A DNA stretch of 64,000 nt from Allobosea sp. LC85 (lineage in GTDB: Bacteria > Pseudomonadota > Alphaproteobacteria > Rhizobiales > Beijerinckiaceae). The notes under the pieces are model-generated. The model had not been told where the DNA came from. It saw only the letters and a program-made list of their open reading frames with translations, and did not search any database. Location: contig NZ_JPKG01000033.1 in the NCBI RefSeq assembly GCF_000735605.1, forward strand, positions 1-64,000, read 5' to 3'. Position numbers and translations under genes: made by a program. Shown here piece after piece: positions 41,219 through 50,885 of the stretch. Every line of letters starts with the position of its first letter. Position 1 is the stretch's first letter.

Positions 41219-42298
41219 TCAAACGAGCCTGCGACTGTTCAGGAAGGCGCGCTCGGCAATATCGCTCCACTCCATGATCGAGGCGCGGAATTGTTGGTAG
41301 CTTGCGTAGACCTTCCGGGAAAGCTCATCGCCCGATCCGGCCTCCGCGACGACCTCCTGACTTGTCTTGATGAACGCTCTCAGCAGGGAGTCGTCGAACT
41401 TCTGAATCGTGACGGTGCCTTCCTCGCGCAGTTTGCGCAGCCATAGGGCGTTATTGGCGTTGAATTCGGCCAGGGAGCGCGAGTATTCGCCTGCCGCGCA
41501 AGCCTCGATCAGCCGTTGATCGCTCGGACTGAAGCTTTCCCACACGCGCCGATTGATCCCGAGGGTCAGGCCAGTGCCTGGCTCGTGGAACCCCGGATAG
41601 TAGAAGTAGCGCGCAGCCTTATGCAGGCCCAAGGCCATGTCGAGCCAGGGGCCGACCCATTCGGCGGCGTCGAGGGCGCCGGACCTGATCGACCGTGCAA
41701 TCTCGCCGCCTGGCACATTCACAACGATTGCGTCCATGCGCCGGAGCACCGCCGCGCCAAGCCCGGGTATCCGGTAGCGCAACCCCCTGAAGCCGTCCGG
41801 CGAGGTGATCTCGTCGACAAACCAGCCGCCGCTCTGGGTGCCGGTATTGCAGCAGAGGAACTGCTTCAAGCCAAATTGGCCGCTGAGTTCGTCCCACAAT
41901 TCCTGCCCGCCGCCATAGTGCACCCAGGCGAAGAGTTCGTCCGCGGTGTAGCCGAAAGGCACGGCCGTAAAGAAGTTGAACGCCGGCGACTTTGCCTCGA
42001 AATAATAATCCGCCGAGTGAAACATCTCGGCGACGCCGGCGGCCACCGCGTCAAAGGTCTCGAACGGTCGAACCAACGCGCCGGCAGGAAACACCTCGAT
42101 TGCGATGCGACCGTTACTCACCTCGCTGATCGTCTTCGCCAGACGCATCGCGCTGCTTTGAAGCCCGGGAGAGCCTTCAGGCCAGTCGGTCACCAGCTTG
42201 AGTTGTCGGATGCCCTGCGCGAGGGCAGGGGCCGGGAAGCCCGACATCGCGCCCGCAGCGATCGATCCGGCCCCCGCCAGAAGATCCCGCCGTCTCAT
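41219..42298 (-). CDS. TRAP-type periplasmic binding protein (DctP family)
   Basis: A 359-residue protein from ATG 42298 with GGAGG upstream. The N-terminus RRRDLLAGAGSIAAG is a twin-arginine signal. LKLVTDWPEGSPGLQSSAMR, GRIAIEVFPAGALVRPFETF, and SGALDAAEWVGPWLDMALG with GLRYRIPGLGAAVL match TRAP binding proteins for carboxylates or keto acids. No dctQ or dctM gene is present; the neighbour is a divergent histidine kinase, which suggests a role as ligand-presenting sensor. Confidence 0.85.
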   Translation of the reverse strand: MRRRDLLAGAGSIAAGAMSGFPAPALAQGIRQLKLVTDWPEGSPGLQSSAMRLAKTISEVSNGRIAIEVFPAGALVRPFETFDAVAAGVAEMFHSADYYFEAKSPAFNFFTAVPFGYTADELFAWVHYGGGQELWDELSGQFGLKQFLCCNTGTQSGGWFVDEITSPDGFRGLRYRIPGLGAAVLRRMDAIVVNVPGGEIARSIRSGALDAAEWVGPWLDMALGLHKAARYFYYPGFHEPGTGLTLGINRRVWESFSPSDQRLIEACAAGEYSRSLAEFNANNALWLRKLREEGTVTIQKFDDSLLRAFIKTSQEVVAEAGSGDELSRKVYASYQQFRASIMEWSDIAERAFLNSRRLV

Positions 42299-42436
42299 GA
42301 GGAATGACCTCCAAGGACATAGGTCCCCGCACCCGCCCAACTGTGCGGCCGGCAATTTTCGGTCGATCTTCGATTGTTTCTCGCAACGATCTGCTTAGAC
42401 CATGCTAGGCTGAACCGCAATCTTGTCGAAGGTTGG

Positions 42437-45454: not shown

Positions 45455-45846
45455 CGGTCAGCCTTCTGGTCGTCGACGACGAGCCGGATGTCGCCGAGCT
45501 GTTTTCCCAGCGGTTCCGCCGCGAGGCGCGCAACGGCGACTATGCGCTGCATTTTGCCGGATCGGGCGAGAATGCCCTGCTGCAACTCAGGAATGGTATA
45601 CGTCCCGAACCGGTCTTCATCCTCTCCGATATCAACATGCCGGGGATGGACGGTCTGCAGTTGCTGCACGAGATCGGGCTGGGATGGCCGCATCTGCCGG
45701 TCATGATGGTGACGGCCTATGGCGACGAGGATCGACGGCGCCAGGCCAGCGCGAAGGGCGCGGTCGACTTTCTCAGCAAGCCGGTCGATTTCGATTATCT
45801 GAAGCAACGGCTGCGCGCTTTCGCCGTTGCCGGCTCGTCCCCATGA
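45451..45846 (+). CDS. Single-domain response regulator
   Basis: A 131-residue receiver with Asp9-Asp10, phospho-acceptor Asp60 in LSDINMPGMDG, Thr in MVTAYGD and Lys in FLSKPVD. There is no output domain, so it may act as a phosphate relay or on a partner protein. It overlaps the kinase upstream and the cyclase downstream, both as ATGA. Confidence 0.92.
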   Translation: MTVSLLVVDDEPDVAELFSQRFRREARNGDYALHFAGSGENALLQLRNGIRPEPVFILSDINMPGMDGLQLLHEIGLGWPHLPVMMVTAYGDEDRRRQASAKGAVDFLSKPVDFDYLKQRLRAFAVAGSSP

Positions 45847-47009
45847 GCGCCGTCCCCATGAGCGCCCCCTCCCGCATCCTCGTGGTCGATGATGAGGCGG
45901 ATGTCGAACTGCTGATCAGCCAGCGCTTTCGGCGTCAGGTCCGCGCCGGCGAGTTTGCCTTCGTGTTTGCGCGCGACGGCGAGCAGGCCTTGCGCCTGCT
46001 CCAGCATGATGATGCCGCGATCGACCTGATGCTGCTGGACATCAACATGCCGGTGATGGATGGCCTCACCTTGTTGGCCCGGCTGCGCGACCTGCATGCG
46101 CCGGTGCGAGCCATCATCGTGTCCGCTTACGGCGATATGCCGAATATTCGGACCGCCATGAACCGCGGCGCGTTCGACTTCGTCACGAAGCCCATCGACA
46201 TGGTGGATCTCGAGGTGACGATCCGCAGGACTCTGGACGACATTGCCAAGCTGCGCGAGATCGAGCAGCGGCGCGCCGCCGCCGAGCGGGCGCGCAGCAA
46301 TCTGGCGCGCTATTTTTCGCCCAATCTCGTCGAGATGCTGGCAGAGCGCGACGAGCCCTTCGGGCCGGTCCGGCGACAGAATGTGGCTGTGTTGTTTGCC
46401 GATATCGTCGGCTTCACGGCGCTGTCCGAGCGGATGGGGCCGGAAGACGTCATGCTCCTCCTGCGGCAGTTCCACGAAAGGATGACGACGCGGATCTTCG
46501 CGTGCGGGGGCACGGTCGAGAAATATATCGGCGACGCCATTCTCGCGATTTTCGGCGTGCCCACGACGACCGACCAGGACGCGGGCCAGGCGCTCAAATG
46601 CGCCGACGGGATGATGGCGGCCCTCTGCGACTGGAACCGTGAGCGCAAGGCTGCCGGAGAAACGCTGCTGGGCATGGGCATCGGGGTCAATTTCGGCCCG
46701 GCGGTGGTCGGCGATGTCGGCAGCGCGCGCAACATGTCGTTCACGGTCATCGGCGACACCGTCAACATCGCAAGCCGCCTGCAAACCCTGACGCGCACCG
46801 CTCAGACCCCGCTCCTGGTGGCCGACGGGGTTGTCCAGGCCGCCAGGGCGCAGTGCGACGATGAGCTTGCAGAGATCCTTCACCGGCTGAAGGATGGCGG
46901 CGAGCAGGCGGTGCGCGGCCGCCACGAGGTTGTCCGCGTGTGGCTCGGCATGGAGCGTCGGTCCGCCCACGGGCAGGGGCTAGAGATCGGCGTCGGCGGT
47001 TTGCGTTAA
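45843..47009 (+). CDS. Response regulator-class III adenylate cyclase
   Basis: A 388-residue protein. Receiver 1-125 with Asp66 (LLDINMPVMDG) and Lys in VTKPID, then a coiled linker to about 175 and a class III cyclase domain. Metal Asp187 (FADIVGFT) and Asp231 (YIGDAILAIFG), substrate Lys227 in VEKYIGD, and the VIGDTVNIASRLQ motif point to ATP as substrate. Phosphorylation by the upstream kinase would thus change cAMP. The start overlaps the previous gene as ATGA. Confidence 0.92.
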   Translation: MSAVPMSAPSRILVVDDEADVELLISQRFRRQVRAGEFAFVFARDGEQALRLLQHDDAAIDLMLLDINMPVMDGLTLLARLRDLHAPVRAIIVSAYGDMPNIRTAMNRGAFDFVTKPIDMVDLEVTIRRTLDDIAKLREIEQRRAAAERARSNLARYFSPNLVEMLAERDEPFGPVRRQNVAVLFADIVGFTALSERMGPEDVMLLLRQFHERMTTRIFACGGTVEKYIGDAILAIFGVPTTTDQDAGQALKCADGMMAALCDWNRERKAAGETLLGMGIGVNFGPAVVGDVGSARNMSFTVIGDTVNIASRLQTLTRTAQTPLLVADGVVQAARAQCDDELAEILHRLKDGGEQAVRGRHEVVRVWLGMERRSAHGQGLEIGVGGLR

Positions 47010-47218: not shown

Positions 47219-48136
47219 TTACTCCGAAGGTATTGTCGACCCTTGGCGGCTGAAGAACTCGATAATCCGAGTATTGGAGGGGCCGGGCGTCTCCAGATGC
47301 ACAAAATGGCCCGCGCCTTCGGCTATCTCCAGGATCGGGGAGGCGAAATATTCCGACAGGCGGTCCATCCAGGCGCATCGGATAATTGGATCGTGCCGCC
47401 CCCAATAAAAGCGGCTCGGCACTTCGATCTTTGGCATGGCCGGCGCCCCGTCGCGCACCAGCGCCATCCGGGACGCATTCGTGGCGCGATACCAGGCGAA
47501 GCCGGACTCGATGTTCCCGGGCTGCATGAAATTGTCGACGAAATGCTCGATCAGGCCGTCGAGCGCGCCCTGCGCGTGCACCCAATGCCTTAGAATGCCC
47601 TCGAAATAAATCCGGCAGGTTTCGCGGGTATGGCCCACCAACTGCGCCGCCCAAGGCTGCTGGTTGAAGGACTGATACCAGATTTCCTGCACCTGCTCTG
47701 GATCCACCCAGCGGCGCCCGATGCCGGGATAGGGGCAATTGAAAAAGAACAGCCCCGACAGCCGATCCGGGCTCAGCCGGGCGACCTGCTGTGCGACATA
47801 GGAACCGACATCATGGGCCACCAGGCCGAAGCGTCTCAGGCCCAGCGCATCAGCCAGTGCCAGGATGTCGCGGGCATGGGTGTCGGCGCCAGCATGCTCT
47901 GGGCCGCGCACCCGCGTCTGGCCGAAGCCGCGAAGATCCGGGGCAATCACGTCGAAATGCGCGGCGAGTGCCGGAATGTTGCGGTGCCATCCCCACCAGA
48001 ATTCGGGCCAGCCATGCAGCAGGATCAGCGATTGGCCCTGCCCCTCGCGGACGAGGTGCATGTCGAGATCGTCGATCCGAACCGAATGGTGGTTCCAGTT
48101 GCCATCAGGGCGGGAGAGATCGCGTTTTGTGCTCAT
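47219..48136 (-). CDS. Epoxide hydrolase-like alpha/beta hydrolase
   Basis: A 305-residue protein. ATG 48136 overlaps the stop of the dehalogenase gene as ATGA. The oxyanion motif is HGWPEFWWGW, the nucleophile is Asp in VAHDVGSYVAQ (Asp rather than Ser marks epoxide hydrolases and haloacid dehalogenases), then GRHDPIIR and catalytic His in GAGHFVHLE. The cap segment has YQSFNQQPW and YFEGIL with candidate Tyr residues. Coupling to a halohydrin dehalogenase favours epoxide hydrolysis over haloacetate dehalogenation. Confidence 0.85.
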   Translation of the reverse strand: MSTKRDLSRPDGNWNHHSVRIDDLDMHLVREGQGQSLILLHGWPEFWWGWHRNIPALAAHFDVIAPDLRGFGQTRVRGPEHAGADTHARDILALADALGLRRFGLVAHDVGSYVAQQVARLSPDRLSGLFFFNCPYPGIGRRWVDPEQVQEIWYQSFNQQPWAAQLVGHTRETCRIYFEGILRHWVHAQGALDGLIEHFVDNFMQPGNIESGFAWYRATNASRMALVRDGAPAMPKIEVPSRFYWGRHDPIIRCAWMDRLSEYFASPILEIAEGAGHFVHLETPGPSNTRIIEFFSRQGSTIPSE

Positions 48137-48807
48137 CGTGTCACCCACCCTCCGGAAAAGGGGAAAATCTGCCCGACGAAGAAATTACTTTCGTTGCCGG
48201 CGAGGAAGAGGGCCAATGCTGCCGCCTCCCAGCCATAGGCCAGACGCCCCAGCGGCGCCCCCTTGATGCGCTCCTTGAATTCGGTGGTCGCCTGATAACT
48301 TGCGGGGAAATAGGTAGGGTTCTCTACGAAGGTCTGCGCAATCGCGTTGACATGAACGTTGTGCGGCGCGACCTCGGTGCCGACATCCTGGACATAGGCG
48401 AGTTGCGCGCCCCGAGCGGAACCGTAAGCGGAATAGTTCGGCATGCCCTTGAGGGCAGAGGCACTTCCCATCACAACGATCTTTCCCTGTCGACGGGAAA
48501 TCATCATCGGCAGGACGGCCCGCACCAGTCGGTGGAGCGGAAAGACCATCGCTTCGTACATCGCCTGAAATGTCCCGTCATCGGTATCCAGGACCGAGGT
48601 TCGCGGCTGCGCCGCCGCGAGATTGGCGATCAAGACATCGACATGGCCGGCTTCCGCGATGAGCGCCTCCGCCGCGCCTTGGACCTTCAAGTCGCGATCA
48701 TCGGCGATGAGAATGGCTCCTTCGGCGCTGAATCGATCGACCAGATCCTTCCCCATGAAGGCGCTGGTCTGCGTGATGACCACTCGTTTCCCGTTCATCT
48801 GCGTCAT
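48133..48807 (-). CDS. Halohydrin dehalogenase (SDR-related, Ser-Tyr-Arg)
   Basis: A 224-residue protein from ATG 48807 with GGGGAGA six bases upstream. It has an SDR fold but not its cofactor or catalytic motifs. T12-x4-F17-x-G19 (TQTSAFMG) replaces the glycine-rich loop, and Ser115-x12-Tyr128-x3-Arg132 (AYGSAR) replaces YxxxK. These two motifs define halohydrin dehalogenases. FVENPTYFP and [13 protein letters not shown] also match that group. The reaction is reversible closure of vicinal halohydrins to epoxides with halide release. It is sandwiched between coupled dehydrogenase and hydrolase genes. Confidence 0.85.
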
Positions 48808-50150
48808 GTCCGTCTCCCCACTGACTCGGATGCGTTGCGGTACGGCGCCGCCCCGCCGTAGGGAACGTTGACGCCACCGTAGCGGCGAACACGGACGTTG
48901 CATTGCTCGGCATGCCCGACGAAACCCTCGAGGATGCACAGACGCGAGCCATATTCGCCTATCCTGACAGCCGCCTGATCGGTGACGATCTTCTGATAGC
49001 TGTGCGTCTTGATGAACTTGCCGACCCAGAGCCCACCTGTGTACCGGCCCGCTCTTTTGGTCGGTAGCGTGTGATTGGTGCCGATCACCTTGTCGCCATT
49101 TGCGACATTGGTACGGGGACCGAGGAACAGCGCCCCGTAGGAATGCATGTTCTCAAGAAACCAATCGTCCCGGTCCGTCATCACCTGGACATGCTCGGAG
49201 GCAGTCTCGTTCGCGACTGCGAGCATTTCCTGATAGGTGTCGCAGACGATCACCTCGCCGTAATCCTCCCAACTACGGCGTGCCGTTTCGGCCGTGGGAA
49301 GCATCTCGAGGAGCCGGTTGATCTCGACAAGGGTCGCTTCGGCCAGGTCGCGGCTGTTTGTCAGGAGGATGGCCGGCGAGTTGTAGCCATGTTCGGCCTG
49401 GCCGAGCAGATCCGTCGCGCAGACCTCTGCATCGGCGGCGGTTTCGTCGGCGATCACCATCGTCTCGGTGGGGCCGGCAAGGAGGTCGATGCCGACGCGA
49501 CCAAAGAGCTGCCGCTTGGCTTCAGCCACATAGGCATTGCCGGGGCCCACGAGCATATCGACCGGCCGGATCGTCGCTGTGCCGAGCGCCATGGCGCCGA
49601 TGGCCTGGATCCCGCCGAGGACATAGATCTCGTGCGCGCCTCCCATGTGTATGGCCGCGATCACGCCCGGGCTCGGCTCGCCCTTGAAGGGCGGGGTTGC
49701 GGCGACAATTCTCGGGACGCCTGCAACTGAGGCCGTCGCCACCGACATATGACCAGAGGCAATCATTGGGAACTTGCCGCCCGGGACATAGCAACCGACC
49801 GACTGAACGGGAATGTTCCTGTGGCCAAGGATGACGCCGGGCAGTGTTTCGATCTCGAGGTCCTTCATCGAGGCACGTTGGGCGCGGGCGAAATGGCTTA
49901 CCTGATCATGCGCGAAGCGGATATCTGCCATTTCCCGATCGGACACCTTGCTCACGATCGCTTCGATCTCGCCCGGGGACAGGCGAAAGGAGGGCGGCGC
50001 ATACCGGTCGAACCTCTGGCTCATTTCGCGCACGGCCTGATCGCCCCGCGCCTCAATGTCGCTCAGAAGGGTCTCGACGGTGTTTCGGGTTCTGGAATCG
50101 TCATCCGCGCGCTCATTGGCGGAACGAGATGTCTTGAGATGGCTGATCAT
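48804..50150 (-). CDS. HisD/HpsN-family zinc-dependent alcohol dehydrogenase
   Basis: A 448-residue member of the histidinol dehydrogenase family: [51 protein letters not shown], metal-site Gln and His in [13 protein letters not shown], and [17 protein letters not shown]. No other his genes are here, and [17 protein letters not shown] resembles the sulfopropanediol dehydrogenase branch (HpsN), which oxidises a diol to a hydroxy acid with NAD. It is the first gene of the operon and overlaps the dehalogenase gene as ATGA. Confidence 0.85.
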
Positions 50151-50182: not shown

Positions 50183-50224
50183 TTAACGTAGTGTCAAAAA
50201 TACAGGTTATTGACGCGTCGTCAA
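50183..50224. promoter_or_regulatory. Paired TetR operator candidates
   Basis: TTGACG-CGT-CGTCAA at 50210-50224 is a perfect palindrome; TTAACG-TAG-TGTCAA at 50183-50197 is a two-mismatch version, centres 27 bases apart. Both lie in the 132-base gap between the divergent dehydrogenase and TetR genes. Confidence 0.6.
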
Positions 50225-50282: not shown

Positions 50283-50885
50283 ATGCGCCCCAGACTGTTT
50301 GACGAGAATGCCGTCCTTACTGTCGCCTTTGACCAATTCTGGCGGAAGGGTGTCCGTGGCACATCCCTGTCGGATATTGCGCGGGATGTCGGAATGCAGC
50401 GCGGCTCGCTCTACAATGCCTATGGCACCAAGGAGGCGCTGTTTCTCCGGGCTTACGCCCGTTACGCCGACGACTATCTTGCAGCCGTCGCGTCCGCGCT
50501 GGCCGTGGGCAAGCTCCGTGAGCGGCTGGAGCGCTTCTTCGATGTTGCGATCCGCAATTTCTCCATCGGAACACCGCCACGCGGTTGTCCGACGACGCGC
50601 GGTCTCATGGAAGTGGCGTCAATCGAGGGGGACGAACTGGCCGAAGAGGTCCGGACGGCCTTTGCCGGCCTGCTAAGTCGGTTGACCGGGTTTCTCCGGG
50701 AGGCTTTTGCCCAAGGGGTTGCATCGGGGGAGTTTTCGGGCTCGCCGGATGCGGCGGCCGAACATGTGCTAACCATTGCGCGCGGTCTTGTGGTGCTCGA
50801 AAGCGCATATCATGATGAAGCCATGCTCCAGCGTGTTGCAGCGAATACGGTCGATATTCTACTTGGCGCCGGGCATGATATTTAA
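50283..50885 (+). CDS. TetR/AcrR-family regulator
   Basis: A 200-residue protein from ATG 50283 (GAGAGG upstream). The N-terminal helix-turn-helix is FDQFWRKGVRGTSLSDIARD and GMQRGSLYNAYGTKEALF. The ligand domain has CPTTRGLMEVASIEGDELA, where Cys and the flanking segment match regulators of the TetR_C group near oxidoreductases. It is divergent from the halohydrin operon and should repress it from the palindromes in between; a halohydrin, epoxide or diol could be the inducer. Confidence 0.9.
   Translation: MRPRLFDENAVLTVAFDQFWRKGVRGTSLSDIARDVGMQRGSLYNAYGTKEALFLRAYARYADDYLAAVASALAVGKLRERLERFFDVAIRNFSIGTPPRGCPTTRGLMEVASIEGDELAEEVRTAFAGLLSRLTGFLREAFAQGVASGEFSGSPDAAAEHVLTIARGLVVLESAYHDEAMLQRVAANTVDILLGAGHDI

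Follow-up and report, generated by a model that had tools for sequence, protein, structure and literature searches.

A predicted halohydrin dehalogenase of a distinct branch shares its operon with a HisD/HpsN-like dehydrogenase and an epoxide hydrolase, suggesting a natural route for halogenated alcohols

Does the protein of 224 aa encoded on the minus strand at 48133..48807 of the window, i.e. of the whole 64,000 nucleotide stretch analysed here, belong to the halohydrin dehalogenases (HHDHs), and what would such an enzyme do in the company of its neighbours? A preliminary description had taken it for an HHDH hidden among SDR proteins. As far as sequence and modelling can tell, this assignment is borne out by motifs, matches to solved structures, a tree and the predicted fold, and the gene looks like that of a genuine HHDH rather than of an ordinary oxidoreductase.

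HHDHs are defined, according to passages of a 2016 review (PMC4989007), by the nucleophile-pocket motif T-x4-[F/Y]-x-G and the catalytic triad S-x12-Y-x3-R. Both are present in the translation. The first appears as T12QTSAFMG19, with T12, F17 and G19 exactly where the preliminary description had read them, and the second as S115, Y128 and R132, likewise at the residues named there; FVENPTYFP and a further stretch of 13 residues that had been pointed out were also found. As a control for chance occurrence, we examined the SDR-like proteins that this genome encodes besides the HHDH, i.e. 43 of the 44 matches. None of them (0/43) combines the two motifs. A string resembling the first motif is present anywhere in the sequence in 4/43 and S-x12-Y-x3-R in 0/43, while the ordinary S-x12-Y-x3-K is found in 29/43. 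Both motifs are shared by 89 of the 94 HHDH relatives read from genome loci, a sample with a few repeats in which one genome comes from two collections (e.g. L036 and L089), and by 114 of the 120 protein-database matches listed, at least two of the other six being cut-off pieces.

The highest matches of the HHDH among solved structures are 8xxb, 7b73 and 4zd6 (226, 213 and 202 bits, respectively). After an HheB mutant, the next are the “dehalogenase” 6a41 with 97 bits and then the best NAD-dependent SDR with 94 bits. An AlphaFold2 model of the protein (mean pLDDT 86) was compared with known structures by Foldseek, and ranks 1–9 are all occupied by HheD or HheB chains. In a VIA-align comparison, what follows after the HHDHs is largely plain SDRs, which reflect the shared fold only.

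For the phylogenetic tree, rooted at the midpoint, we combined 35 HHDH-like rows (HheB, HheD2 and HheD8 among them) with 24 of the 43 SDRs from the same genome. Examined with HheC and SDR outgroups, as had been recommended, the HHDH groups with characterised HHDHs and not with SDRs. The 35 HHDH-like rows are separated from the 24 SDRs with support of 97/92, and HheC joins the HHDH group on a long branch (91/94). The window HHDH is placed in its own clade of 10 rows (100/99) beside the B- and D-type references but outside the reference clades of both types (the D clade has 12 rows, 100/100), in a tree that is without E- or F-type references and has weak deeper forks (bootstrap 83–90). Because of this position, filing of the enzyme as D-type was dropped. 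HheD2 (7b73) and HheD8 (8xxb) have the same motifs, belong to the same length class and are 47–51% identical to the window HHDH in structure alignments, while the latter stays outside their clade. HheB of Corynebacterium sp. N-1074 (4zd6) is on a branch separate from it.

The HHDH gene is part of a tight operon. Upstream of it, as the first operon gene, is that of a HisD/HpsN-like dehydrogenase of 448 aa, NAD-dependent by family (48804..50150, minus strand), and its stop codon overlaps the HHDH start by 4 bases (ATGA). Downstream, an alpha/beta-fold epoxide hydrolase of 305 aa (47219..48136, minus strand) starts with another ATGA overlap of 4 bases at the HHDH stop. The overlaps at both junctions suggest one transcript with coupled translation. 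A gene for a TetR-family regulator (50283..50885, plus strand) is divergent from the operon and starts 132 bases away. This arrangement is flanked by a response regulator with an apparent cyclase domain (45684-47009, plus strand) and, from 52750 on, by a gene resembling phosphoribosyltransferases. Neither is evidently linked to the pathway proposed below, their roles having been read from the sequence and not from a search. A DctP-type solute-binding protein (PF03480) is encoded about 5 kb beyond the operon, at 41219-42355 on the minus strand.

The epoxide hydrolase is most similar to solved structures 8hgu (268 bits), isobutylene epoxide hydrolase 9c2g (186 bits) and the related soluble epoxide hydrolase 1ehy (182 bits), which we take to be EchA. 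Assuming residue roles as in the catalytic site of EchA, the protein has the features of this type, including the HGxP oxyanion motif, the Asp/His/Asp triad and two cap tyrosines. HGWP 41-44, D109, Y154, Y216, D249 and H277 are invariant in 49/49 hydrolase sequences, its own included. HheC and EchA are paired in one strain, Agrobacterium radiobacter AD1, and there an HHDH and an epoxide hydrolase likewise lead from halohydrin through epoxide to diol. HheC is distant from the window HHDH, as its long branch indicates, and to our knowledge there is no HisD-type third step in the AD1 system.

The dehydrogenase encoded by the first gene has HpsN/DHPS dehydrogenases as its foremost matches among solved structures, the best being HpsN, the (R)-DHPS 3-dehydrogenase of Cupriavidus pinatubonensis (8v35, 381 bits), followed by histidinol dehydrogenases (252 bits). 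Its score against TIGR00069 is 419 (cut-off 243.8). Two further members are present in the genome, with 39% and 44% identity; the former groups with three other rows far from the HisD-like family (100/100) and would be the likelier biosynthetic histidinol dehydrogenase. Zn ligands and the catalytic Glu, His and Asp are common to HpsN and the window enzyme, in which Q248, H251, E318, H319, D352 and H411 of HpsN correspond to Q251, H254, E319, H320, D353 and H413, and H360 and K354 are also kept in comparison with CpHpsN. The two proteins differ in that His126 and Ser226 of HpsN are replaced with Met129 and Thr228, and in that the loop GRYAH of HpsN (motif GRY[A/S]H) reads GKFPM in the window protein. 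According to a part of the source on HpsN (PMC11382572), His126 binds the sulfonate and distinguishes HpsN from HisD. The G-R-Y-A/S-H motif ending in this residue is thus absent from the HisD-like protein, and its identification as a DHPS dehydrogenase was rejected for the missing His126. GKFPM was found in 120/120 HisD-like homologues listed (the best of 8000 scored, its own row included) and is replaced with GKYPM or GKYPL in more distant members. This conservation indicates that they make up a large separate family.

Close relatives of the HHDH were searched for in a genome collection (best 80 of 89 considered). Three loci exceed 70% identity, and they belong to Bradyrhizobium erythrophlei GAS478 (L009), Hwanghaeella (L010) and Roseomonas MO-31 (L011). 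The fourth close relative, L143 (genome G1181), is from the genus of L009, in which 3/242 genomes matched at E 1e-60, GAS478 included. The gene order HisD-HHDH-hydrolase is shared between the window and the two genomes of this genus. In L143, an SDR and a tautomerase precede the HisD-like, HHDH and hydrolase genes, while in L009 a tautomerase is followed by the HisD-like gene, HHDH, a fusion of hydrolase and haloalkane dehalogenase, and another tautomerase. The fusion (L009:10672-12558, plus strand) is natural and in-frame, 628 aa long, with the epoxide hydrolase first and a LinB-type haloalkane dehalogenase second; the dehalogenase part scores 409 bits to 7pw1 and 476 against its NCBIfam model (cut-off 241). 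L010 has the TetR gene and the HHDH-hydrolase pair, and L011 has TetR, HHDH and then a haloalkane dehalogenase, both without a HisD-like gene beside HHDH. The L011 haloalkane dehalogenase (311 against a cut-off of 265) matches 2xt0 with 350 bits and 1edb, presumably DhlA, with 318 bits, and by its sequence appears DhlA-like.

Some other genes accompany these operons. The tautomerase genes beside the operon in both relatives of the Bradyrhizobium genus are located at L009:8361-8648, L009:12692-13129 and L143:7115-7552. Tautomerase_3 is matched by the first of them, which is a short copy, and by the one in L143, and we assume that the family includes cis-3-chloroacrylate dehalogenase. In L010, the HHDH-hydrolase pair is followed on the opposite strand (L010:11667-12750, minus) by genes for a MarR-type regulator and for a flavin reductase of a type that partners monooxygenases.

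Within 3 kb of HHDH, the hydrolase was found in 3/4 close relatives, the HisD-like gene in 2/4 and TetR in 2/4. Among 81 more distant loci, hydrolase-like genes occur in 3/81 (weak matches of 27–34% identity), HisD-like in 0/81 and TetR in 0/81. These 81 loci comprise 77 from the genome scan and four refetched from thirteen further distant loci with short flanks (the remaining nine were uncounted); 58 of the 81 have 3 kb on both sides, and one genome may be represented twice. In L018, a HisD-like match of 36% is about 5.5 kb from HHDH, outside the 3 kb counted. Counts of haloalkane dehalogenase neighbours (4/4 and 2/4 in close relatives, 1/81 and 2/81 in others) were set aside because the queries also matched other hydrolases; in L023, one of the 81 distant loci, a haloalkane-dehalogenase-like match has 107 bits. 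Searching for conserved neighbours revealed, besides HHDH, no cluster in more than six of the 63 loci where the gene finder kept HHDH.

Pairing of the HHDH and the hydrolase was also followed through contig sizes. Ten sizes, each with a common source label, are present both in the 81 HHDH matches (at least 70% identity) and in the 49 best hydrolase matches: 86787, 19819, 5263, 3772, 5720, 7553, 2990, 4430, 6097 and 767740, the last of which is L010. The pairing therefore probably recurs in metagenomes, as judged from sizes in all cases except 767740. Sizes 3104, 1055 and 1324, common to HHDH and weaker hydrolase matches, were dropped as they have no common source label. An HHDH entry (P0123, 97% identical) and a HisD-like entry (P0004, 98% identical, without a source label) have the same contig size of 13408. 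Plasmid searches disclosed one distant match for HHDH (48%, E limit 1e-30) and eight records matching the hydrolase, all below 60% (E limit 1e-60).

We have also addressed the region between the TetR gene and the operon. A perfect candidate operator, TTGACGCGTCGTCAA (TTGAC-N5-GTCAA), is located at 50210..50224 and overlaps the promoter-like -35 of the operon, and a second one with one mismatch, TTAACGTAGTGTCAA at 50183..50197, abuts the promoter-like -10. The promoter-like pair under the candidate operators (50224/50197) is weak, one being found against 1.1 expected. The pattern was read by eye from gaps of the window, L010 and L011 and then tested on whole loci, and since it was chosen after viewing the sequences, the position of the sites outweighs their number. 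Allowing up to one mismatch, there are three matches in the 64 kb window, of which two, including a perfect one, are in the 132-base region, and two each in L010 and L011. All four sites in L010 and L011 are inside the TetR/HHDH gap, provided that the TetR gene is given the start it has in the window; operator-like pairs are present in this gap in 3/3 loci having that TetR. Numbers expected by chance in the whole sources are 0.96 for the window, 0.52 for L010 and 0.07 for L011; the counts were reached in 5/100, 9/100 and 0/200 shuffles, respectively, and are not extreme in the window and L010. The pattern was not detected in L009 or L143, which are without this TetR in the stretch examined. 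When the TetR gaps were scanned for inverted repeats in general, the signal was weak, the best arm being reached by 58/300 shuffles for the window and 16/300 for L010, with no arm of 6 in the L011 gap.

In our opinion, the operon is probably a regulated three-step cassette in which the HHDH, the hydrolase and the HisD-like enzyme, under TetR control, would convert halohydrin to epoxide, diol and finally hydroxy acid. For the first two steps, good support comes from enzyme families and intact residues, from which the activities are deduced. From residues and gene order we infer the third step, the oxidation of the diol, from the recurrence of candidate sites the regulation by TetR, and in a similar manner the order of the steps. 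In the proposed mechanism, Tyr128, activated by Arg132, would deprotonate a vicinal halohydrin held by Ser115, and this would close to the epoxide with the halide expelled into the pocket of the T-x4-F-x-G loop. The hydrolase would then form a vicinal diol, pulling the reversible HHDH step forward, and the HisD/HpsN-like enzyme would oxidise its primary alcohol twice, with NAD each time, yielding a hydroxy acid able to enter central metabolism. The divergent TetR repressor would occupy the two TTGAC-N5-GTCAA sites over the promoter, and the operon would be switched on in the presence of substrate, the sensed compound being one of the halohydrin, epoxide, diol or hydroxy acid. As the natural substrate, our best guess would be a halohydrin that is small and uncharged, for instance a chloropropanol.

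The third step could be questioned, as the halohydrin link of the HisD-like enzyme may be incidental in a family that is widespread and usually without HHDH. An HHDH is present in 0/11 fetched HisD-like loci, in one of which (L133) the gene finder missed the HisD-like gene itself. The working unit would then be composed of the HHDH and the epoxide hydrolase only, and the HisD-like gene would be an accidental co-transcript from a different diol or polyol pathway of the HisD/SDR kind. We find this explanation possible, if rather doubtful. Consistent with it, an SDR of one family is located near the HisD-like gene in 8/11 contexts without HHDH (L128-L132 and L134-L136; 42–53% identical to the SDR in L143), and the HisD-like gene is missing next to HHDH in half of the close relatives. 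The genome of L010 has no HisD-like gene closer than 37% anywhere, and that of L011 has two at 66–68%, away from HHDH. Against it are the gene order kept between the window and both genomes of the L009 genus and the ATGA overlap between the HisD-like gene and HHDH. We read the HisD-like enzyme and the SDR as an older diol-oxidising module that later became attached to the halohydrin operon; in plan, the module resembles HpsN and the SDRs that accompany it, HpsO and HpsP. In the HisD tree, the window copy is not grouped with operon copies of Bradyrhizobium; one clade is not rejected (p-AU 0.146), and double independent recruitment of the gene, which was considered, is not claimed.

It is unlikely, in our estimate, that the operon is devoted to epoxides as such, with the HHDH as a reversible opener or buffer and the hydrolase as the main sink in detoxification of alkene-derived epoxides. 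HHDHs are indeed reversible and open epoxides with several anions, as stated in a part of the 2016 review (PMC4989007). Isobutylene epoxide hydrolase is the second-best solved match of the hydrolase, and a monooxygenase-type flavin reductase is encoded shortly after the hydrolase in L010, on the other strand (L010:12223-12750). In addition, querying the genome of the window with the haloalkane dehalogenases of L009 and L011 disclosed no clear enzyme of this kind, the best partial matches having 50 and 63 bits at one place. Nevertheless, haloalkane dehalogenases accompany HHDH in 2/4 close relatives, which points to halogenated substrates, and no monooxygenase was found among the window neighbours that were searched. 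For the three-step cassette, the result of the haloalkane dehalogenase search implies that the pathway in this genome would start from a halohydrin or a chlorinated epoxide.

A carboxylated natural substrate, e.g. 4-halo-3-hydroxybutyrate, converted to 3,4-dihydroxybutyrate and malate, seems improbable. The HisD-like enzyme keeps Lys354, comparable to Lys353 of HpsN that contributes to sulfonate binding in the relevant part of PMC11382572, and an acidic group may thus be recognised; malate, we infer, would enter central metabolism directly. However, the acid-binding His126 of HpsN is changed to Met129, and haloalkane dehalogenases of the relatives suggest neutral haloalkanes.

The enzyme itself is of a known kind, and what is new is the HHDH branch with its operon. 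The preliminary remark that few natural operon contexts of HHDHs have been described agrees with the 2016 review, in which the passages concerned report only two then-known HHDH genes in an operon with an epoxide hydrolase and leave other physiological functions open (PMC4989007). Literature naming HHDH together with histidinol dehydrogenase was not found in a search that mostly excluded subscription papers. One branch of HHDHs repeatedly keeps the pairing with the hydrolase. In some members this is extended by a putative third enzyme or by a regulator whose operators can be read, and in two by haloalkane dehalogenases. The operon suggests a natural route for degrading halogenated alcohols, and the inducer of the regulator offers a way to the natural HHDH substrate.

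A combination of haloalkane dehalogenase, haloalcohol dehalogenase and epoxide hydrolase is described, in part of PMC5539299, as an engineered pathway for 1,2,3-trichloropropane. Natural aerobic growth on this compound was absent and the genes very rare according to a portion of a 2012 review (PMC3414701), and no natural aerobic degrader was known in 2017 either, as far as the corresponding part of PMC5539299 goes. The three kinds of enzymes of the synthetic pathway also occur together in L009. The synthetic pathway, with glycerol as its end product, is a laboratory construct, whereas the natural cluster adds the HisD-like enzyme; a haloalkane dehalogenase is included in the former and missing from the window. 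As a tentative extension, we propose that the distinct HHDH branch serves natural TetR-controlled operons in which halohydrins or vicinal haloalkanes would be converted, by way of epoxide and diol, to hydroxy acid. The diol would be oxidised by a third kind of HisD-fold dehydrogenase, in which the sulfonate-binding His is now Met and which would accept an uncharged, possibly halogenated, 1,2-diol, and the Bradyrhizobium version with the fusion may correspond in nature to the man-made trichloropropane pathway. Trichloropropane and other halogenated propanes could be tried with the natural sets of enzymes that these operons supply.

It is extremely improbable that 48133..48807 encodes a plain NAD(P)-dependent SDR oxidoreductase, and this largely refuted reading was rejected on motifs, tree and structure. 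General SDR models do match the HHDH, which is no surprise for a branch of the SDR superfamily, and its relatives are named “SDR family oxidoreductase”, “2-keto-3-deoxy-L-fuconate dehydrogenase” and similar in databases, just as had been guessed for automatic annotation. However, of the 200 SDR models that match, the 25 shown all stay below their curated cut-offs, other residues stand in place of the cofactor loop and of the catalytic Lys, and both tree and structure place the protein with HHDHs.

Several HHDH-like proteins deviate from the common pattern. Those in L013, L014, L023, L036 and L089 (the last two look the same) are 55–56% identical to the window HHDH and have Ala instead of the catalytic Ser and Leu instead of the aromatic residue in the first motif, with Tyr and Arg kept; their function is possibly altered. 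A tandem pair of HHDH-like genes, with 53% and 55% identity to the window HHDH, was observed at L012:9321-10660. Finally, an HHDH that is 83% identical (P0148) has its entry under a chromosome of Streptomyces, a genus remote from the proteobacterial members, and suggests horizontal transfer.
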